Of a stretch of 64,000 bases of DNA, positions 5,101 to 60,805 are shown piece by piece. Every line of letters begins with the position of its first letter. Positions within the stretch are counted from its first letter, which is position 1. The notes under the pieces are model-generated. The model had not been told where the DNA came from. It did no database searches and was given only the letters and a program-made list of their open reading frames with translations. This DNA is from Ulva prolifera. Lineage: Eukaryota; Chlorophyta; Ulvophyceae; Ulvales; Ulvaceae. The position numbers and the translations under genes are program-made. Location: contig CM041203.1 of NCBI GenBank assembly GCA_023078555.1, positions 5,106,538 through 5,170,537 of the forward strand, in the 5' to 3' direction.

Positions 5101-8100
5101 TGCAATCCCCCCGCCCTCCCCAAAGCACGATCACAGGGTCAACAGGCACACACCTCCGGTGAAGGGGAGGGGAAGGGGGGGGGAGGAGCGATGCCACCTG
5201 CTGATCAGGCGCTCAGTGGCGGCCATAAGATCCCACAACTTCGCGCTCGCAACAAACAGGACTTGGGAGACGACGTGAGTGCGCACCTCGAACTGGTGGC
5301 GGGAGAGGGCGATGCAGTCGTCGAAGGTCTGGCAGCGCGAGGCGCCGAGGCATTCGGCGACGGCCTCGAGGTTGGCCTGCGCAGTGTGGTCTGCCGCCGC
5401 CTTGGCCGCCGCGAGGTACTTCTCTGGATCATCTAGGAAGCTATTAACCTCTGCACGCCGGGGGCATGTTTGTTTGCAGGGGTCGGCAGCTGGGGGCTGA
5501 CGCGCACGGCACGGTCGCGGGCGCCGCACTGTGGCCATGGGGTCGAAGCTCAGATGCGTGCAATGCAACCGCAAGAAGCCAATGCATGCGTGTGCCGTGA
5601 CCATCGCGGCCCATTAGATAAAGAATCAACCGCCCCGCGCCTCTTGAATGGGAGCGACCCCGAGTGGCAGTGCGCAGAACGTGTACGCGGTGCAGCATGG
5701 GACGGGGATGGGGGTGGCGCACCCTTGGGGTTGTTCTCGAGGTTGCCCTCGAACTCGGAGCGGGCCCAGGTGAGGCAGTGGTCGATGTTGTGGGGGAAGC
5801 TGTGCAGGGTGCACATCGGGGCAGACTTCTCCGGCGGGTCGCGCGTCGCGCCGTAGTTCTCCGTCAAGTTCGGGATCACCATCTGCACATCGCGGAACTT
5901 GAATTTTCCCGCCCTTCGGAGCCCGCTGATCCGCACAACACGCTGAACTCATAATGCACGGCAGTTCAGTAAAAGGTCTTAAATGGGTGACCGCGATGAC
6001 CATACAAGCATCTGCTGCACCGGCTGCTAATGTGCCAGCAGCGCGCAGGACGACTGTAGCATCTGGACACACTGCGCTACCTGCGAAGGGGCTTTCCCGG
6101 ACAGACCATCCCCATCAGCGCAGCATTTGTGTGTTCAGCACTGCCATGCAGCACTGTGCATGGGTTGTTGGACTGCGCAATGTAGGATATAGTCTCTGCA
6201 GCCTGCCCGGCGATCACGCAGCCGCGGCTGAGACTCGAGCATCATACAGCATGCGCGGCGCACCTGCGTGTTGCACTTGGTGCCGAGCGTGCCGCTCTCC
6301 AGTAGTGGCCGCTGGAAGTAGACGCAACGGCTGTCGACGTACAGGCGCGCGTTCACGTTGTCCAGCGCGTTGACGACGACGTCCAGCCCCTCCCAGAACT
6401 CGTCGTTGAACACGTCCTCGGTGTCCACGCTCACGCGGTTCTGCAGCAGCTGTGCGCGCAGCGCCGGGTTGATCCGCTGCGCCGCCGCCCCGGCCACCGC
6501 CGCCTTGAACCCCCCGATGTCCCAGTCCCGGAACAGGAACTGCCGGCTGAGGTTTGACTTCTCGATGACGTCGTCGTCGGTCACGATGACGCCGGGCGTG
6601 GCGGTGGCGGCGGCCGCGGCGCCGCCGGGTGCAGGCGGCGCGTCGCCGCACGCGACACCCATAAGCGCGAAGTTTTTGAGAAACTCACAGCCGAGCGCAC
6701 CGGCGCCTACGAGGAAGGTGCGGAGGGAGGCGAGGCGGGCCTGCAGGGTGCGGCCGAAGACGGCGATCTGGTGGTCGTAGCGGCAGCCCGCGGGCTCGTA
6801 CTCGGCCTCGGGCAGCACCTCACTCGGTAGCGATTCCACACTGCAGCACGGACGCTCCTGTCACAGATTGTTTTGTGTATATATGCATGCCCGTAGGAGG
6901 GTCGAGAACTCCGTCATCCAGGCCCAGACGAGGCTTCCCAGCTGCCGCTTGATATGTATGATCCACACATGTATGCCTTATTGTGTGCCGGTGTGCGACT
7001 ACAGCGGAGAGAGCCTCAGAAAGTCGCGATCCCACACAAACACACGAGGCTCGATCACATGTGTGCCGCAGCCTGGAGATGCAAACCAAGCACCGACGGC
7101 CTGTACGATCGCACCTCAACGCATCGCAGTCTCAACACGTCACACTGCAGCAGCAGCGGCGGCGGCGGCACACCTGTCGAAGTAGAACCACTGCGTCATC
7201 GGCGTGAACTTGCCAGAGATCGCCTTCACGGCCTCCTGCCCCACGATGCCGCCGAACATCGCGGCCATCGGGTTGAGCTCCGCGCTGCACGTCGACGCAA
7301 ACTGCGCCAGCACCGCCTCGCTCGCCTCGGCCTGCTGCTCCTTCGGCTGCACCGCCACCGCTGCTGTCACCTCGCTGCAGCCGGCAGCGGCCCGCTGCTA
7401 CCGTACATGCTGCAGCGCGACATGCCACTTGGCCGCTGGTAAAGTGAACTACATCTGGGTTTACTGAGCGGTATCCTTAGATGACAACTCCAAATGAATG
7501 GGACCATTTGCCGACATACAGCTGTTGCCAGCTCATCACGGCTGTCAGGCTGCCGCAGCGCACTGTGGGGCAGGTACACGCTGAGCTGGCTGTACAGTAC
7601 ACGGGCGCATGTACCACATGCAGCTGCACCACGCGGCGCTTGCCTTTGGCACGTGTAGCTGCAGAGCGAAGGATGGGTGGGAGGGGGAACGCATTAGCAT
7701 GGCTCAGAATACAACAATGTCCTATAGGATACGGCTCCGTAAATTCGGATTTGCTTTACAAATACATGGGCTTATGACTGCGCCCGGTGGCGTAGGAAAT
7801 CTTTGCATTGGAAGACAGCGCCTCCACAGATCATCACAGCTTGGATGAGCGGCTGAGAGCGGCTGGGAGTGGCGCACCTGTGAGGCATTGAGCTCCTCGA
7901 AGACAGACATGAAGGCAGCGATGTCCGCCTTGCTACCGGGCGTCGGCAGCTTGCCCTGTTTCTCCACGAACACCTCGAGTGCCTACACAGCAGCACACAT
8001 CTCAGACGCACCCTCACAGCCCTCGACACTGTCAGTCTATGGTGGGGTCGCGATTGGCTGTGACCATATCTGCGCCACTGCACCACGAGCACACAGTCTG

Positions 8101-30300: not shown

Positions 30301-30638
30301 ACACCAACAGCATATGATTGAGATCTACGCTTGTCAGCAGAGTACCCAGGGCATGCCTAAGAGCACCGCCAGCCATACACTGGCGTTGCCTGACTGTACC
30401 TCTCAGCCAGTACGCCCTGCAATCTGCTGCCACGCATGTCCTGACATGCCTCAGCAACTCTCCACCACAATATAATTATTTTCTAAATTCTGGCTCCTCC
30501 GTCTGTGCATGAGGCAGGCGCGGCAAACAGCCGGGGGGACCGCGACCACTTCACATGACCATCCATGCATATGGCCTCGCGTGACGCAACCGCGCCTGCC
30601 TTCATACCCTCCATGACCACATGACCCTCGGCGCCGCT
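27194..30638. other. 3.4-kb stretch without a recognised gene
   Basis: No family motif was found. A long minus-strand open frame at 27230-27928 has the residue mix of chance translation. Around 28950-29300 the minus strand contains exon-like pieces: 29151-29085 reads PYPDEDIDSFPYAAIVQCFG between a TCAG acceptor and a GTAAC donor, and a neighbouring frame reads MLTILAQGHPIDVYGMWLC. Near 30030-30095 the minus strand reads EEQKATLEGSQ before a GT donor. These may belong to one minus-strand gene that I could not assemble. Confidence 0.3.
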
Positions 30639-33600
30639 CTAATTCTTGCGACCGGATCGCTCCGCGCCGTCCCCACCGCCGCCGCCGCGGCCACCTTGCC
30701 GATTACCATTGCCACCCCCCCGCCGGCCTCCGGAACCGCCTTGGGCCCCGGATCCGTCCCCGAGGTTCCCGGAGCGCCCACCGCGCGACCTCACGCCGCG
30801 GCTGTTCTGCTTCCCATACGCACGACCCTCGCCGCGCGTCCCCTTCTGCCCCCCAGAGCCCCCCCTCTGCTCCCCGTCGCGGCTCCCCTGGCCGGCCGCT
30901 GCGGAGACGTCGCCGCGAGTCTGAGTCGGGCCCGCGGTCTGCCCGGAAGGCCCCGCCGTGGGCTGCGCGGTGCGCCGGGGAGCGGCGCCGATACCTGAGG
31001 TGCCACCCTCGCCCTTCAGCTTACTTGCAAAGGTGGCGTTCCCGGACCCCCAGGCACCCGCCACCGGGGGGCCCACCTTAGCCACCGCATCACTGGCACC
31101 CTCCGCGGGACTGTCGCTGGCCGGTTGCGCGTCCGCGCCGCCGGCGGCTTGCTGTGGGGGCTTCTGAACGGGAGGTGGAGGCGCCTGGCGGACCTCGCTG
31201 CGGCCCGCTGCAGCAGCAGTGGCCTGAGCGGCCGGCGCCTGCCTCCCCCAGGCCGAGCTGCGTGCGCCTGGCCCAGCAGGCGCAGCAGGCACAGCGGGCG
31301 GCTCGGCGGAATCCCCAACATGAACGCCATTCTGCGGCCGCGCCTCCTCGGTCGCACCCCGGCCCGTCTGTGGCTCATCGCCACCACGCCTGGCGCCAGC
31401 GGATCCTTGCCGTTGTGGGGCGGGTCGGGCCGATCGGGCGGGGGGTTGGGGCGGGGGCGGGGCCGCCACCGACGCCTCCGGCGCAGCACGAGAGGCGCCA
31501 GCCGGGCGGCGCGCCTCCGTCGATCGGCGGGAGGGCGCCGTATTTGCATCAACGCTGGCACCGCCGCGTCTGCCACTGTCGGCAGTGGGGCCCGCCGCGA
31601 GGGCCGGGGGAGTCGGGCTGTTGCCGGTGCGGGTGAGGAAGTCGCTGCACACCGCCGCGTCTGGGGCGGACGCATTCCAGCGCTGCCGCTCGCCAGCGAT
31701 CGACGTGTCCGCCGCAGCCGCCGCCGCCGAGGCCGTCGCCGGCCGCTCCTGCGGTGCGTCCGGAGCTTGCCCTGGGAGGAGGTGCGCAACTCCAACGCCA
31801 GGCATGCGTGCAGGAGGTGCCTGCCCGGCGGACCAGTGGCTTTGCGGCACCGGCTGTTGCCCTGTGGGCTGGACCGCATGCATGGCCGGGTGCTGGTATA
31901 TGTGTTGCACAGGGTGGCCCTGGGGGTATACGGCCTCTCGTGCGCCGCGCCCGCCGCGCTGAGCCGCGTCGAGGTCATGCCGGGGGTCATGCTGCGCCAT
32001 CTGCTGCGGTTGCGCTCGCGCCGCAGCCGCCGCCACGGCCGCCGCCTGGATCTGCAGCTGCTGCATCTGTAGCTGCGGCAGGTGCTGTGCCTGCTGTGCG
32101 TGCTGCGTATGCTGCAGAGCGTGTTGCTGCGCCGCGTGCTGCTGCAGAGACAGCTGATGCTGCAGTTGGGGCTGGTGGTAGGGTGCGTATGCGGCCGCAT
32201 GCATGTCGGCGACGCCGGCGCTGCTGCTCGCTTCGTTGCTATGTCTCTGCGCCGCTGCAGGCTGCGGCCGAGCATTGTAAGGCAAAGCGCCTGTGGCCCC
32301 CCTCATGGGCCCCATACTGGACCCAGGTGCTTCCCCAGAAAGCCCCGGCATCGCCCGTTCGCCGCCGTGGCCGCCGCTAGGCGCACCCCTTGCGATCTCT
32401 CCATTCTGCACTTCAGATTGCGAGGGCTGCCGTGCAAAGTGACCGCGTGCCGCTCCGGCGCTCCATGCATGCTGCTGCTGTTGCGGCAGCTGTGGACGGG
32501 GCTGCTGCTGCGCATGCTGCGGGTGCTGCGCATGCCGCGGAATCTGCTGCTGTTGGGGCTGGGACATGACCGGCTGCTGCGGCTGCTGCTGTGCATGCTG
32601 TGCTTGCCGCGCAATCTGCTGCTGCTGCTGCTGTGCATACTGCTGCTGCTGCTGCTGTGGTGGCTGTGGCGGCCCCTGTTGCTGCTGCTGTGCTGGTTGC
32701 TGCGGCTGCTGTGCATGCTGTGGCTGCTGCCGGTGCGGCACCGGCACCGGCTCCGCACCCACGCTGTGCGTGCTGTGCTCCTGTGCGACGGAGGCATCAT
32801 TGAGTTGCAGGTGGTACTCGATCTGTTGGTCCACGATGCCATCCAGCTTTGGGGTGGGCTCCAACAGCTTGCTGTTCACCGCCTGCATGCAGGCCAACAC
32901 CTCTCTGAGCACACCCGCACTGATGTTGTTCACGCAGTGCATCAGCGTCGCTCTACGGCTGTCGGGCCGACCCATTCCAGGCACCACGCACACGCATGGC
33001 GGCATGCGGACATGGCCGGGGGGCGCACCTCCTGGTAGAGCATGAGCTTGTCGAGGGCGGCGCGGCGGCGCTGCGCGAGGGTGAACGCCTGCGCGTGAAG
33101 CGCCGTCAGGGTCGGCAGAATCGAACCCTGCAGCACAGCCGGCTGTGATGAAGAGCACGATCAACCATGCGCCTCGACACACCATTTTCTGCTGTACGAT
33201 GTATCTGTCAGCATGCAAGCTCAGCAACCACCAGGCAGCTGTCGTGGGGAGAAGTTGAAGCAGCAGACGAATGCAGCCACAACCGGGTAGGCTGATGGGT
33301 ACCTCTGGGCTGGGTCCGGGTGAGCTGAGGGTGGCCAATAAGCGCAACGCACGCGGCGGCCTCGTTGCTAACCTAATGCATGTAGCATCGGCATCACCGC
33401 AGCCTCCAGGGAGATCGTACGACACTCCGCGCATGACTCCAAATTGACACTACGAAGCGTTGGGTCCAATGGGTTGAGGACGGATTAAAAGCTACCCCCT
33501 CCGTTTCAGGAGGTCGTGGGTTCGATTCTGCGTGCGCTTTGGGGAATCGAAACGGCCGCACGTGACCACCTCGCTTAGAACAGGAGGAGGCCCTGTGAGT

Positions 33601-35810
33601 TGCGTACGGTCGTCTGAGGGGGGTTTCCAGGTGGTTTACCCCTTCGGCATATGTGGTCCCGTTAATTCGGAGTGGTCAATGTCCAATAGGATACGGCTCA
33701 GTAAATTTAGATTTACTTTACTTTACCAAGCGAAGTATGACCTCCCTCTGATCCTTACACCACCTTGTCAACTCCACCAACAAACAGGCGATTACCCACA
33801 GCATGCCGTATGACAAAAACCAAACAAGAATAAAACCACAGTCGCGACACAAGTGAGAACGCTCGCAGCGCCTTGTGAGGAGAGGGGAGCACCTGTAGCA
33901 GGTCCGACATGCTCTGCTGCAGCACGCCGGTGCAGTACAGGGTGCGCGCGAAGGCCTCTGCGGGCGGCGGCAGCTGCGCGTCGAGCGCCGCCATCTCCTC
34001 CGCGTACGGCGTCCACTCCTCCTGCTTCAGGCTGTTGATGCGCGCGACGACGTCGTGCAGCGCCGCTCCCCGCGCCGCGTCGCCGTCCGCCACGAGCGAC
34101 ACCGGCACCAGCGAGTGCTCCCATGCCGGGCCCTCTGCCCGTGCGGCCTCTGCATGCATGCACGCCCGTCGCACCGTGGGGCCGTCGATCAGCAGGCGGA
34201 ATCGCATGATGGGGGACCGTGTAGGCTGTGGATGGGGGGGGTGCAAAAGAGGCAGGGCACCACAGGGTGAGGGGGTGGGACCGGTTGGGGTGAGGGGTAG
34301 ACTGCATTACAAGGACCAAGACGATGGCGCAGGTAGAGTGGAAGGATGTGCGTCGACTGTAGGGGAGCGCGGTGCTGTGCTGCGCCGAGATCCAAGCCAG
34401 GTGTCAAGTTTCATAGCCACGAAGGAATCGACACTCCGGCGATGGAAAGGTCAACAAGCGCGGGTGGTGTGTCTCTGCTGCGCACAGTGGTCGGGCGGCG
34501 GTACCTTCGCGGGACTCCCGCAGGGCAGCCCGCATCTGCGAATCCTCCTCGGCATCATCATCGCTGGCCCCGAGGTCTGGCACCACCCGCTGCGTTGACT
34601 GGAAGGCAATCACCTGCACGCATGAGGCGCAACGTGAGCGCATGTCCTGCTGAGGGGTGCCTGTATCAGCTGCAGTGTGGTGACAAACCAACTGTGCTGG
34701 GCGACAGGCAATGAAAGAGGACATGTCGGGGTGCCGAAGTCAATCAGAATAGGGAACAGAAACCACAGCTGTGTATCATTGGTCAGAGGCTCATACCTGT
34801 ATCCTGTCTCCCTGCTCAGGAGCTTGCAGGCTGTTGAAGCATGACACGATGATGCCAACAAAGCCTTCATCGAGAGCCTGGTAGCTAGCCTGCAGATCAG
34901 GGCACGCTCATTGAACGGATCTGATGGAGCCTGATGGATCCTCCAGGCATAGATCGTTGCTGAAGCATGCAGATGGGCTTGCGCCAATGGCAGTGCTTGG
35001 GCGCGCCTGTGTCTGAACATCGACGTGGGAAGGCAACGCGGTGATGTGCGGGTGGCTGTGATACCATCCCACAACCCGCGTTGTCCTGTTAGAGTTTCGC
35101 GTTTCCTCTTCGGCAAGCTGTGCAACCTCAGCCATTTGCGTGCTGCTGCATTCCACTCGATCCTGCAGCATGCGGAGCTCGTTGACGACCGCCGTAAGCA
35201 CAGCACATGCGACATTGGAGCCCTGTTGCGCACAAAGGTGATTATTCTCGCGGCACGCAGCTCACACATCAATCTTTGGGTCCGCGGCAGGAGAAAGGGG
35301 GTCGTCGGAACGGCACACACTGCATCTACGGGACAGTTCATACCAAGCGTCCGGTGGTCAACGTACGAGCACTGGCTCCGTGACCATATCATCACTCACA
35401 TAAAGGCAACACATAGCATGTTCAAGAATGCTACTCTGCACTGCAGGTCGCATTTATTAGAGCAGAAGCAGCGTGCCTTGCGGCGGTCTTTCCTGATCTG
35501 TGGCACTACCTTCCATATATACGTGACGATCTCACCGCTCTCATCCGTGACCGTGTCACCCAGTAGAAGGCCCATGATTTCCTCCTTTTCAGTTGTGAGC
35601 GCATGCGCGATGCAATTGCAAAAAACGCCTGCACAACACGATCGGCCGGGTCGAACTCCGTCATGGCAACAACTGTACCACAGCCACATGTTGAAGCATG
35701 AAGCATGTAATGTACAACACTCAATTGTCTTCGCCATGTTTGCCTTGATCTGCACGCGAGCAAGGGGGAGACAAACCATGGCTGACTTCGACACGGCTGA
35801 CAGGTTTCAT
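30639..35810 (-). CDS. BRCC36: BRCC36-type JAMM deubiquitinase with a long Gln-rich/RGG tail
   Basis: BRCC36 is the K63-specific zinc deubiquitinase of the BRCA1-A and BRISC complexes. Exons: 35810-35777, 35628-35477, 35162-35007, 34889-34797, 34613-34505, 34149-33893, 33127-33029, 32882-30639; all phases agree, giving 1047 aa. Residues 1-300 follow the plant BRCC36 order: HALTTEKEEIMGLLLGD (catalytic Glu28), RKDRRK-DRVE, the JAMM motif GWYHSHPH...PSHVD (His97, His99, Asp110), EGFVGIIVSCF, RIQVIAFQS, then a helical C-terminal region. The first exon encodes only 11 codons and is the least certain. Introns 2 and 3 use GC donors (AAG|GCACGC and CAG|GCGCGC), giving exactly the family spacing. The last exon adds about 747 residues: poly-Gln/His/Ala blocks, Pro/Ala-rich stretches, and a Gly/Arg RGG-type C-terminus. 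That tail is absent from the family members I know and could instead be a neighbouring gene joined by my exon choice. Confidence 0.88.
33461..33727 (+). repeat. Longest SINE-like copy, with tRNA-like head
   Basis: Lies in BRCC36 intron 6, antisense to the gene. The 5' part has box A-like TGGGTCCAATGGGTTGAGG (33461-33479) and box B-like GGGTTCGATTCT (33518-33529), spaced as in RNA polymerase III internal promoters. The body leads to GTCCCGTTAATTCGGAGTGG, GTCCAATAGGATACGGCTCA and a TTTACTTTACTTTAC tail ending near 33727. The 3' third matches the other copies in the window. The stems do not pair well enough for a functional tRNA. Confidence 0.7.
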
Positions 35811-42590: not shown

Positions 42591-43501
42591 GTTTGTATGT
42601 GTCCAGCTTGAGGTGTAGCGGCCGCTATCTGCACTGCAATTTGGAAGTCCGGGTTGCGCAGGCCGGTGCCCCTGAGGCACCTGGGTGAGGCACCTGGGTG
42701 AGGTGCAACGCCGGTGTGGACTAGGTGGTGAGGAAGAGGTGAGTGGGCTGAACAGGAGATCAGCGTTGTTTGCGATATGCCTTGGTGTTATGCTCCCTCG
42801 ATGCTTTTGTGACAGTGGCGCCAGGCTGAAACAAGCCGCTCCAGCAGAATCTGTGCAAGGGCTTTGGCACGGAATCATCGTTCGGTGGAGCTGTAAATTT
42901 TGGCTGTTCGCGTAGAGACTGTGGGCAGATCGCCAGGAAAACCATCATGCGGTGAAGCACTGGGGGTGCTCTGATGGCAGTGAGCCCTGACACTCGACCT
43001 TGGGGCTGCCTGATGGCTGCGACATGTTTGCGGCCATTATCGGGGGCTCGCGTGTCTGCAGGTACTACGACTCTGCGTGCCCATGCAGCCAGTGTCATGC
43101 TCCCCTGAAGATTCACACTCGGTGTTGCGCACAGCGGACCCAGCGTGCGGCTTGCACCAGGCGAAACACAGAGCGGGGACCTCGATTTAGCAATCCATAG
43201 CATCACCTCTGGTACCTGCCAGTTGCACGTGCATTGGCGTTTGAACGGGTGTTCACTGCTGTCGACGGATGCCGACGCTACCTGCCACGCAGCAGAGGCA
43301 CTGTACGAGCCTGCGCGCTATGCGCCGTCAATTCATAGACAGAGCTACTTTTCACATTGTATCATTTAATTTTGCGCACACGGCACCTCAAAAGCGAAGC
43401 GCGAGAGTTGTCACAAGCACCGGAGCTGGCGATGCACCTCACAGCTACGCCGAGGTGTCTGCCTCCCACCTGAATCGAATGAACATTATCCCAATATTAA
43501 G

Positions 43502-46500
43502 CTTGGCGGCTACTTCCTGGACCGCCTCGCCTTCGACTTATCGCGCGCTCCCACTGCTGAACAGCAAGCCGGCCTGCATACGGGGGTTAATCTGCAGGCT
43601 CGATATTACGGCCCTCCAGGAAATGGAGTGAATAATAAAGCTGCTACATCCATACAGAAGCCCCTTGTGATCGGGGTAGCCGGCGGAACAGCTTCAGGAA
43701 AAACCAGCGTCTGCAACGAGATCATCAAGAAGCTGCAGGATGACCCGGTATGTGTACCGCCTGAACACCTACATGATGTCATAGTAAACCGACAACATGC
43801 TGATGACATTCAGTCTCCAACTTATATGCCACTGGCTCAGGAGAGCCGAAAATCTGTATCAAATGCCACCCGCTGTGTGGTGCCATGGCACCAGCTTGCT
43901 CCATCAGCACAAGCTGAGCCTCCGCTTGCAAGCATGTTGCTAGACGATATAGCCACAACAGCGCAACCAGAGTGTGCTCGGTGCATCACCTGCATGCGAC
44001 GTACAGCTGAGTGCGCAGTAAGCGTTTCATCTTCACTGTTGACCTCCCCATGCGCGATTGCCCCACACCACCCACCCAAACGCGCCAAATGCGCACAGCC
44101 ACTAGACTCCAATGGCTTCCGTAATCACCTCACTGTGGACAGCATGCCATGGGCACTTGTTGTGTCTCGTACTGTGTCTGACACAAACCAGCCCTCGAGC
44201 TGCAGTGCCACACCTACACCCCGCTCACGGCAGCCCCCTCTACCGCTCACTGCACCCTCTAACCAGCCTGGTGTTACAAGAACACGGAGGCAGGCAGCAC
44301 CGCAGGAACAGTGTGCACAAGAACCCGCTCTGCCCTTTCTAGTGCACCTACACATGTCCTGGAGTCTGTGTACAAGCACGCACATGACCTAGGGCCGTCC
44401 CCACCAGATCACATCAGCATGCAGCAGCTATTGCAGCCAGCCCCCCCCTCCCCACGGTCAAACCCCCGCTGCTCCCTGGCCACCCCACACGGCTCAATCA
44501 CAGATCTGTGATCGCATGCATGCTGTCGTTCACCAACACGCACGCATGATGCGTTGTCACCCACACGGTGGTACGAGTACTGGCTGCCACTCAAGTATCA
44601 CGATACATGCATCCGATCCTCATCATTGACCATTAATGCTTCGGGGTTGGCGCTTAAAGCTCAACACACATAGGCCCTCATGTCCCCCTGAGGGCCCCAT
44701 AGCCACCCACCTCTCGTGATTCCCATGCGCGCTCCACACCGTGTTGGCCGTCCTCCCTAGCAGCGGCACACACCGGCTTGCGCGGTACGTCGGCTCGGCA
44801 GCGCATGCAGCACACCCCAGAGCTGGGGCTCCCCCACTTGGTCCACCATACTGCAGCGCAGCCACGCTGAAAGCTACGGTCGGCATGGCCACCTCCTGCC
44901 ACAAGGAGGTGAATGTGGCAGAACCGGCCACATCGCCCGCAGTGGCCGGCCCATGCGCACTCCATCGCACCACCTTCAGCATGGAAACGTGCGACCCTTT
45001 CAACCCATCTGCGGGGCCCTGCTCGGTGGCGCAGACAGAGCTGCCGTAACACAGCGAGCGGGTATAGCATCCGCAGGATTCCCTCGTCAACAGGCGACCA
45101 AAGGCAATGGCCACACTGGGGGTTCACCACGTCGGCATGTCGTCCCATTCATTCGAAGTTGGCTCCGTGTCCTCCAACGGATACGGCTCAGTAAATCCAG
45201 GTTGACTTTACTTTGGTTTGCTTCACACTCATGCATTGTGTTGAGACAGCATGCTACCCTCTACCCAGGCAGCAACCCCCGGCGCGGCTCACAGTGCGCT
45301 GACAGCGCGCGGTGCCTGTGGACACATGTGGCCGTGTCCGGAAACGTCATCAGGGACTCATCACACACCCGCACCCAAGCTTCCTCTAGCTGCAGCACAG
45401 CGCGTGCCGGGGATTTGAAGCAAGGCAAAGAGGGAGGCCACCCGCACCCCCTCCACGCTGCATCAGCGAGATGATGAATGTATCGATGTGTTCAGATATA
45501 GCCATACACACATAATTTATGTGACATAAACAATACACTCGTGGCTTCAGTGGTCCCGCGTCCTACTGCGGACAGCCAATTCTGTCGGCACCCAGCTGCT
45601 GCATACAGGTTCCCAGTGTGGACGTTATGATCCCATGTTCATGCGCTACGATATCCCGCTCTCTGAGCATTGGCGCTGCGTGAGGAGATGGTTTTCTGCT
45701 GGCCGTAAGCCAGCGCTGTTTGCTGCAACGGCTTTGACGATCATGCAACATTGGGCTGCGTGGTTGATGACTGGCTGCTTCCTTGTAAAGCTGGATGCCT
45801 GTGTTTTCCCTAATTGTGAAGACGCTTTTGTAGTTTCTCATGTGCAGTGCACTTGCCCGTAGTGGGCGTGCACGGAACTGGTGAATGAGTGGATTTGCAA
45901 GTGCATTCCGAGCAACGCCTTGCTGCCCGGCCTCTGTCCTTTGTAACCACATAAACAATAAAGCCATACATCCGTTTGGACATTGACAGCTCCGAATTCC
46001 GGGATCGGGGCTGGGACCGATGTATGTGACGTACCGTTGCTCTCGTCACCTGCAGGCCGCCTGTGGCCGTGGAGTCCTCTCCATCTCGCAGGACTGCTTC
46101 TACCGCGACCTCTCCCCGGCCGAGCGCGCCGCCATCGCCACCCACAACTTCGACCACCCCGACGCGTTCGACTTTGCCGAGATCCGCGCCACGCTCCGCG
46201 CGCTGCGCGCCGGCGCCGGCGCGTGCATCCCGACCTACGACTTCGTCACCTCCGCGCGCACCCCTGTCGCCACCCAGGTCCACACCACCGACGTCATCCT
46301 CTTCGACGGCATCCTCGCGTTCTACGACCCCGAGGTGCGGGGGCTGTTCGACCTGAAGGTGTTTGTCGACGCGGACGCCGACACGCGGCTCGCCCGGCGG
46401 CTGCGGCGGGACCGGCGGGACCGCGGCCGCAGCGTCGACGCGGTGCTGGACCAGTACGAGCGCACCGTCAAGCCGAGCTTCGAGGGCTACATCGCGCCGA

Positions 46501-54708: not shown

Positions 54709-55319
54709 GTACAGCCCCAGAAACCCACGCATGCAACACAGGAGGAGGCTAGGAGATGTGTGTCTGGGTGGGTGCTTTGGTGTGCTGAGGTACTGGCCAG
54801 CTGCCCCCGGATTGGTCGACAGCGCTCGCTGCTCTGTGGAAACGGATGCGAGCATTGGAATCATCGTTGTACATTTTTGTATTTATGTTTTGCTTTTCTC
54901 TGCAAGTAACCCGCAGCAGCCTCATCAGCCCCCATAGAAGCCATTACATGTTTCCCATCGGACTGATGTTTGTCGGGTCAGCTCATTGCATGCTGTGGAC
55001 ATCTGTGAAACTCGAACAGTGCAGGTGGTCAAACTCTTACAACCTCAGCACCGGGGATGTTCGTCTCTCGACCGTGATCCTTGCTCATGTCATCCACATA
55101 GCCTCAGGTGTTTCCGAGATCGTCCATTCTGCGAAATGTGATCGAAAGCCCCGGCACAATGCCTGTCGGTGAAAACAGTGACTCTTGTGACTCTTGTGAG
55201 TACAACTCAACCCTTTTGAAGCTGGCAGCAGCAAGCTGTTGTGGCAGGAAGCCGAGGGCAGCCACGTTGGAGGCCTCCTGTGAGAGTCCAGTGCCGAATT
55301 TGCAGCTTTCTTGCCTGTG

Positions 55320-55362
55320 AAGTAAAGCAAATCTGAATTTACTGAGCCGTATCCTGTTGTTG
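55320..55362 (-). repeat. SINE-like fragment (family 1)
   Basis: Reverse complement reads AGGATACGGCTCAGTAAATT followed by CAGATTTGCTTTACT. It interrupts the block duplicated between copies A and B: the equivalent place near 50960-51590 in copy A has no such element but holds other repeats. Confidence 0.8.
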
Positions 55363-60377: not shown

Positions 60378-60458
60378 TAAAGTAAAGTAAATCTGAATTT
60401 ACTGAGCCGTATCCTATTGGACATTGATAACTCCGAGTTACTAACGGGACCACATGTG
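60378..60458 (-). repeat. SINE-like fragment (family 1), well preserved
   Basis: Reverse complement reads TGTGGTCCCGTTAGTAACTC, GGAGTTATCAATGTCCAATA, GGATACGGCTCAGTAAATTC and a CAGATTTACTTTACTTTA tail. It matches the 3' part of the copy at 33461 over its whole length. AGTAAAT-CTGA-ATTTACT at the junction with the tail is self-complementary. Confidence 0.88.
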
Positions 60459-60805
60459 CCTCAACCACCGGGACCACAGGTGTTGTGAGGAACAGCACAT
60501 AGGGGGCATTGCATGCAGTGCTCAAGAGCAACACCCCTGGCAAGATCTAGGTTTGCATGCAGTGAACCATCAGGTGTTGGTTGCTGCTGTTGTTGACTGT
60601 TGTGTGCTTTACAGGGATCACAAGGATGGAGGCAGCTAACAGAGCTGAGGCATTCAGTGGCAGGTGATGTCACATGTACAGAAATGTCACATGCCCATGA
60701 TGGGCCAAGGTGCCACCAGGGCCAAGGTGCAAGCAGGATAATGTTGAGGAGGCAGGTAGCACCACCTACAGGAAGGTGGCACTGCCTTGACATTACCCTC
60801 ACCCC

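Follow-up and report, generated by a model that had tools for sequence, protein, structure and literature searches.

The window analysed here, a stretch of 64,000 nucleotides (64 kb) of the Ulva prolifera genome, carries a BRCC36-like gene on its minus strand. Reassembly gave eight exons between 35810 and 30639 (Table 1), which together comprise 3144 bases, i.e., 1047 codons and a TAG stop codon. The reading phases agree at all seven junctions. Exon 8 is joined in phase 0 at residue 301 and supplies residues 301-1047, referred to below as the tail. The exon count, the length of 1047 residues and the tail coordinates given in a preliminary description of this DNA were reproduced by this reassembly.

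Table 1. Features of the modelled BRCC36-like gene and of its intron 6
Feature	Coordinates	Strand	Content and evidence
Exon 1	35777..35810	-	Start codon, MKPVSRVEVSH; intron 1 identical with plant guide
Exon 2	35477..35628	-	First part of JAMM, catalytic Glu28 (TEKEE); reassembly, PDB match
Exon 3	35007..35162	-	JAMM HSHP and SxxD residues; reassembly, PDB match
Exon 4	34797..34889	-	End of JAMM core; intron 4 recovered by plant guide only
Exon 5	34505..34613	-	UIM-like motif, residues 167-182, EEDSQMRAALRESREE
Exon 6	33893..34149	-	Between JAMM and C-terminal helices
Dispersed repeat	33478..33730		In intron 6, outside protein; SINE-like by eye, with tRNA-like stretch
Exon 7	33029..33127	-	Presumed C-terminal helix; weak similarity; unused by guided alignments
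Intron 7	32883..33028	-	GTGCGC...TGCAG
Exon 8	30639..32882	-	747-residue low-complexity tail and stop codon

Pieces of the intron 6 repeat recur at 60378-60460, 45118-45214, 55317-55359 and 7715-7759 (43-99 bases, 76-91% identity) and at loci L025, L048, L050 and L060 (67-146 bases, 73-96% identity). ARAGORN called no tRNA in the 64-kb window. Nine open frames of the window outside the BRCC36 gene yielded one weak Pfam match; a 339-residue open frame on the plus strand (43370-44386) matched Zeta_toxin below the cut-off (6e-4) and is perhaps a P-loop kinase-like exon.

In a PDB search, residues 4-153 of the model matched the JAMM domain of BRCC36 (E-value 3.5e-36), and Pfam gave a JAB match to the same core (1.8e-21). 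Among the 35 PDB matches listed, eight BRCC36 sequences scored from 3.5e-36 to 1.9e-30, the best RPN11 6e-10 and the best CSN5 2.9e-7; no AMSH chain was among those 35. The JAMM motif, Glu plus HxHx(7)SxxD, is complete (Glu28, His97, His99, Ser107 and Asp110). Judged by these matches, the core is nearer to BRCC36 than to other JAMM proteases, RPN11 and CSN5 included, and its earlier assignment to a BRCC36 JAMM domain is confirmed. Human, zebrafish and other BRCC36/BRCC3 chains in the PDB (e.g., 6r8f, 5cw6 and 5cw3) are alike in this core and in the catalytic residues. The BRCC36 chains listed have 255 to 335 residues (316 for human BRCC36), whereas the U. prolifera frame has 1047, and human BRCC36 gives no significant alignment past residue 153 of the model.

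A JAB profile search of the genome (88.9 Mb, 44 contigs) listed ten exon matches. One is the BRCC36 gene and the best is CSN5; identity is fixed for just these two of the ten, so we make no claim that BRCC36 is single-copy. Genome searches for BRE (PF06113) and with an approximate human ABRAXAS1 sequence, which ignored introns and were run without a positive control, gave no match.

The exon structure was compared with spliced alignments guided by human BRCC36 and by an approximate, shortened sequence of Arabidopsis BRCC36A (the plant guide). The human guide recovered introns 2 and 3 (both GC-AG) and, for intron 1, the acceptor only, and went astray after intron 3. With the plant guide, introns 1-4 were recovered in identical form. 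Beyond that point this guide ended exon 5 at 34587, leaving out the UIM-like motif, and placed intron 5 at 34586-34226; exon 6 then started at 34225 with its frame unchanged, and the last intron lay at 33860-33721. Introns 5-7 as modelled were recovered with neither the human nor the plant guide, and exons 7 and 8 were not used. Since the guided alignments diverge from the model past intron 4, the evidence for exons 5-8 as drawn consists of their open frames, phases and splice signals, and we infer the splicing of the modelled chain from these. The fusion of BRCC36 to a long tail, as first proposed, is upheld in its frame, phases and JAMM domain, but its introns 5-7 are not reproduced by guided alignment.

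All seven introns of the model end in TGCAG, and their donors comprise five GT and two GC, the latter after exons 2 and 3. GTGCGC, the donor of intron 7, was also found at two of 15 introns taken for comparison from CSN5 and two PABP genes; alignments at L003+L004, L005+L006 and L013+L032 (scores 43-44) were dropped from this comparison.

GC-AG introns, which usually make up about 1% of introns, look frequent in this genome. They account for two of the seven introns of the BRCC36 model (35476-35163 and 35006-34890), and GC donors were seen in 5 of the 15 introns of CSN5 and the two PABP genes (L001, L014+L028 and L022+L034), with some placements uncertain. At one PABP site, ttaag/GC in one paralogue corresponds to ttaag/GT in the other.

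The UIM-like motif follows the JAMM domain and precedes the C-terminal part of the protein. The pattern that picks it out, drawn up for this analysis, also matched when the 90 residues around the motif were shuffled, in 86 of 20000 trials, and no UIM was reported by a Pfam scan of the model. A similar stretch is presumably also found in Arabidopsis BRCC36A.

Where the normal protein would end was examined at the junction with exon 8. Resemblance to solved BRCC36 structures ends at about residue 153. Residues 214-316 of human BRCC36 aligned no better than to shuffled sequence (P 0.8), and the C-terminus of the approximate plant sequence aligned slightly (P 0.026). BRCC36_C, sought as the C-terminal helical domain through which BRCC36 pairs with ABRAXAS/KIAA0157, had no match in the Pfam scan of the model, nor in a genome search run without a positive control. 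When shortened human BRCC36 and the plant guide were aligned to the model with MAFFT, the plant sequence stopped at residue 309 and the human one at residue 322; the hhalign match stopped at residue 315. The guide ends thus fall 9 to 22 residues inside exon 8, and adding this exon to the plant alignment raised the local score from 45 to 48. These positions lend weak support to exon 8 as the last exon, since MAFFT tends to place ends together and the gain is 3 points only.

An alternative is that intron 7 is kept always or sometimes, so that the main product is a BRCC36 of 328 residues and the tail exon serves as 3' UTR or belongs to a minor isoform. Reading on without splicing past exon 7 adds 28 codons before a stop, which gives a length near that of human BRCC36; and the support for intron 7 comes from consensus signals and phase only, where a phase match is expected by chance in one case of three and each strand has a TGCAG about every 263 bases. 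However, the plant alignment gains nothing from the 28 codons (score 45 with and without them), and the tail frame is open beyond what composition predicts, as described below. We regard retention as rather unlikely.

The tail exon is open for 747 codons. In first-order Markov simulations based on the tail, an open run of at least 740 codons in any frame appeared in 3 of 3000 trials, and the median longest run was 292 codons; the frame is therefore longer than composition predicts. The stop-to-stop frame that holds the tail has 936 codons, more than any other in the window. Second comes one of 428 codons, which overlaps it on the same strand, and the longest elsewhere in the window has 380. 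Translation of the tail as part of BRCC36 is, in our estimate, probable.

The tail exon could also be a separate gene or open reading frame that was joined to BRCC36 mechanically in the model. An in-frame ATG stands directly before the acceptor (TGCATGCAG), so that a 749-residue protein could start there, and no homology connects the tail with BRCC36. Such a gene would, however, need a promoter inside BRCC36 (in exon 7 or introns 6-7), and the donor, acceptor and phase for joining are all in place. We consider a separate gene very unlikely.

The tail is rich in a few residue types (A 18%, Q 15%, G 13%, P 11% and R 7.5%). Gln is concentrated in two blocks, residues 345-445 and 533-586, and the end is Gly/Arg-rich. 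It is probably disordered, as far as composition indicates, and no Pfam family matched it. The tail holds seven RGG triplets, four of them within the last 115 residues, where shuffling gave a mean of 1.9 (P 0.09); aromatic residues number 16 of 747, with none in residues 1001-1047. In condensing domains, Arg usually has aromatics as its partners, and an RG/RGG-rich RNA-binding region is defined by RGG beyond composition together with nearby aromatics. The tail end stands out in neither its RGG count nor its aromatics. The end had been called RGG-type: it is indeed Gly/Arg-rich, but its RGG triplets do not exceed composition.

Apart from the exon itself, a DNA search with the tail gave 16 partial matches, all in its Gln-rich stretches (15 within query positions 132-417 and one at 768-849). 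At the DNA level, no parent gene from which the tail could have arisen by duplication was seen. Scans of viral contigs and prokaryote genomes gave no relatives.

Biased exons recur elsewhere in the genome. We picked 20 loci because they had CAG repeats or resembled the tail, and ten of them had Q-rich open frames of at least 350 codons. Of ten such frames searched against Pfam, one had an RRM, one an hnRNP Q acidic domain and one pieces of retroelement gag/pol; of the rest, one had a below-cut-off match to a histidine-rich family and six had none. We also considered 37 RRM/JAB loci, some of them overlapping, that had not been chosen for repeats. In nine of these, at least 55% of some 60-residue window belonged to three residue types, and none of the 37 reached 15 Gln in such a window, so it is not routine for a domain-bearing exon to carry a Q-rich tail. 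Exons of biased composition are ordinary in this genome; an enzyme with a Gln-rich tail is less ordinary. Low-complexity regions of tetrapods lie preferentially at protein ends and in GC-rich genes (PMC11285758).

At L010 (contig C19) and L011 (contig C4), the RRM matches are equal in score and profile coordinates, which suggests a duplicated or haplotype segment in the assembly.

Three further approaches to coding potential were uninformative. Synonymous codon bias, using a table of 2303 codons from the RRM and JAB matches, did not single out the frame in either the core or the tail. Among single-step neighbours of CAG in the tail, first-position changes were absent (0 of 42 in one count and 0 of 49 in another), and in control loci they were present in open (47/437) and non-open (29/193) sequences alike; this spectrum was dropped as a coding test because open and non-open loci were not separated, and its stop counts were circular, as the groups had been split by openness. 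On the minus strand, TGTAA is missing between 33759 and 30303 and present at 30303, 30231 and 30161, past the stop codon of the tail. In the 1300 bases downstream of the 37 RRM/JAB loci, TGTAA occurred 28 times in sense and 48 times in antisense orientation; it is not enriched in the sense direction, so its placement as a poly(A) signal favouring one long message was given no weight.

The explanation that we favour, with some reservation, is that the BRCC36 core is ordinary and that the last exon adds to it a disordered, lineage-specific extension of 747 residues, which grew by repeat expansion. It draws on the in-phase introns, the BRCC36-like JAMM domain and the TGCAG acceptor and GTGCGC donor of intron 7, and also on the frame being open beyond composition, the guide ends near the start of exon 8 and the recurrence of biased exons in the genome. 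Arabidopsis BRCC36A and BRCC36B are not known to have a long Gln-rich tail. A literature search by titles and the opening lines of abstracts, which covered few subscription papers, found no BRCC36 with such a tail.

Under this explanation, the JAMM core most likely does its usual work, i.e., cleavage of K63-linked ubiquitin chains together with an inactive MPN partner. PMC7692841 describes purified BRCC36 as inactive and as activated by an inactive MPN protein (ABRAXAS, ABRO1 or KIAA0157), with the coiled coils of BRCC36 and ABRAXAS forming a helical bundle. As the catalytic residues are intact, activation by pairing with an MPN protein would be expected here as in known BRCC36. The extension would begin just past the normal end of BRCC36 and leave the helical bundle at the end of the coiled coil, and it may have grown mainly through expansion of CAG and GC-rich repeats (repeat slippage). 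At most, it would serve as a flexible appendage that associates weakly with itself and possibly binds nucleic acid. Arabidopsis BRCC36A functions in recombination and in the repair of crosslinks, and it localises to the nucleus after genotoxic stress (PMC5776116).

The preliminary description went further and suggested that the tail could couple K63 deubiquitination to RNA granules or repair condensates. That the frame of a BRCC36 core can continue into a long low-complexity exon agrees with our results, but the coupling itself is without direct support. In this proposal the tail would be a functional module for condensation or RNA binding and would bring the enzyme to repair foci or RNP granules, working like RAP80, whose UIMs and disordered region condense on K63 chains. 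The modelled chain does combine a UIM-like motif with a long Gln- and Gly/Arg-rich stretch. RAP80 (UIMC1) is not known to have a JAMM domain. It combines UIMs with a disordered region and is linked to the BRCA1-A complex and to K63 chains (PMC12051939). Phase separation of RAP80 through IDR1, enhanced by K63 chains, is reported (Qin et al. 2023, cited via PMC12051939). For the U. prolifera tail, a condensate or RNA-granule role is weakly supported: aromatics make up 16 of its 747 residues, RGG triplets do not exceed composition and Pfam recognises no domain; moreover, the viral and prokaryote scans provided no relative showing conservation, and the plant-guided gene model omits the UIM-like motif. 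Condensation or RNA binding by the tail is possible, and its operation as a RAP80-like module seems to us quite improbable.

A stronger version would make the protein a single chain joining parts that animals divide between two proteins, BRCC36 and RAP80. Its JAMM domain would cleave K63 chains, its UIM would bind ubiquitin and its long disordered tail would self-associate; the protein would form K63-ubiquitin condensates, or enter existing ones, and its own activity would dissolve them. We give this version very little credence.

The core is of a known kind whichever reading of the tail holds. If the tail is not part of the protein, the locus is an example of in-phase joining to a long open GC-rich stretch that mimics a fusion. 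If transcripts confirm the model, the BRCC36 of U. prolifera would be about three times as long as its human counterpart, and this protein would offer a natural test of whether a disordered tail alters where or how a K63 deubiquitinase acts.
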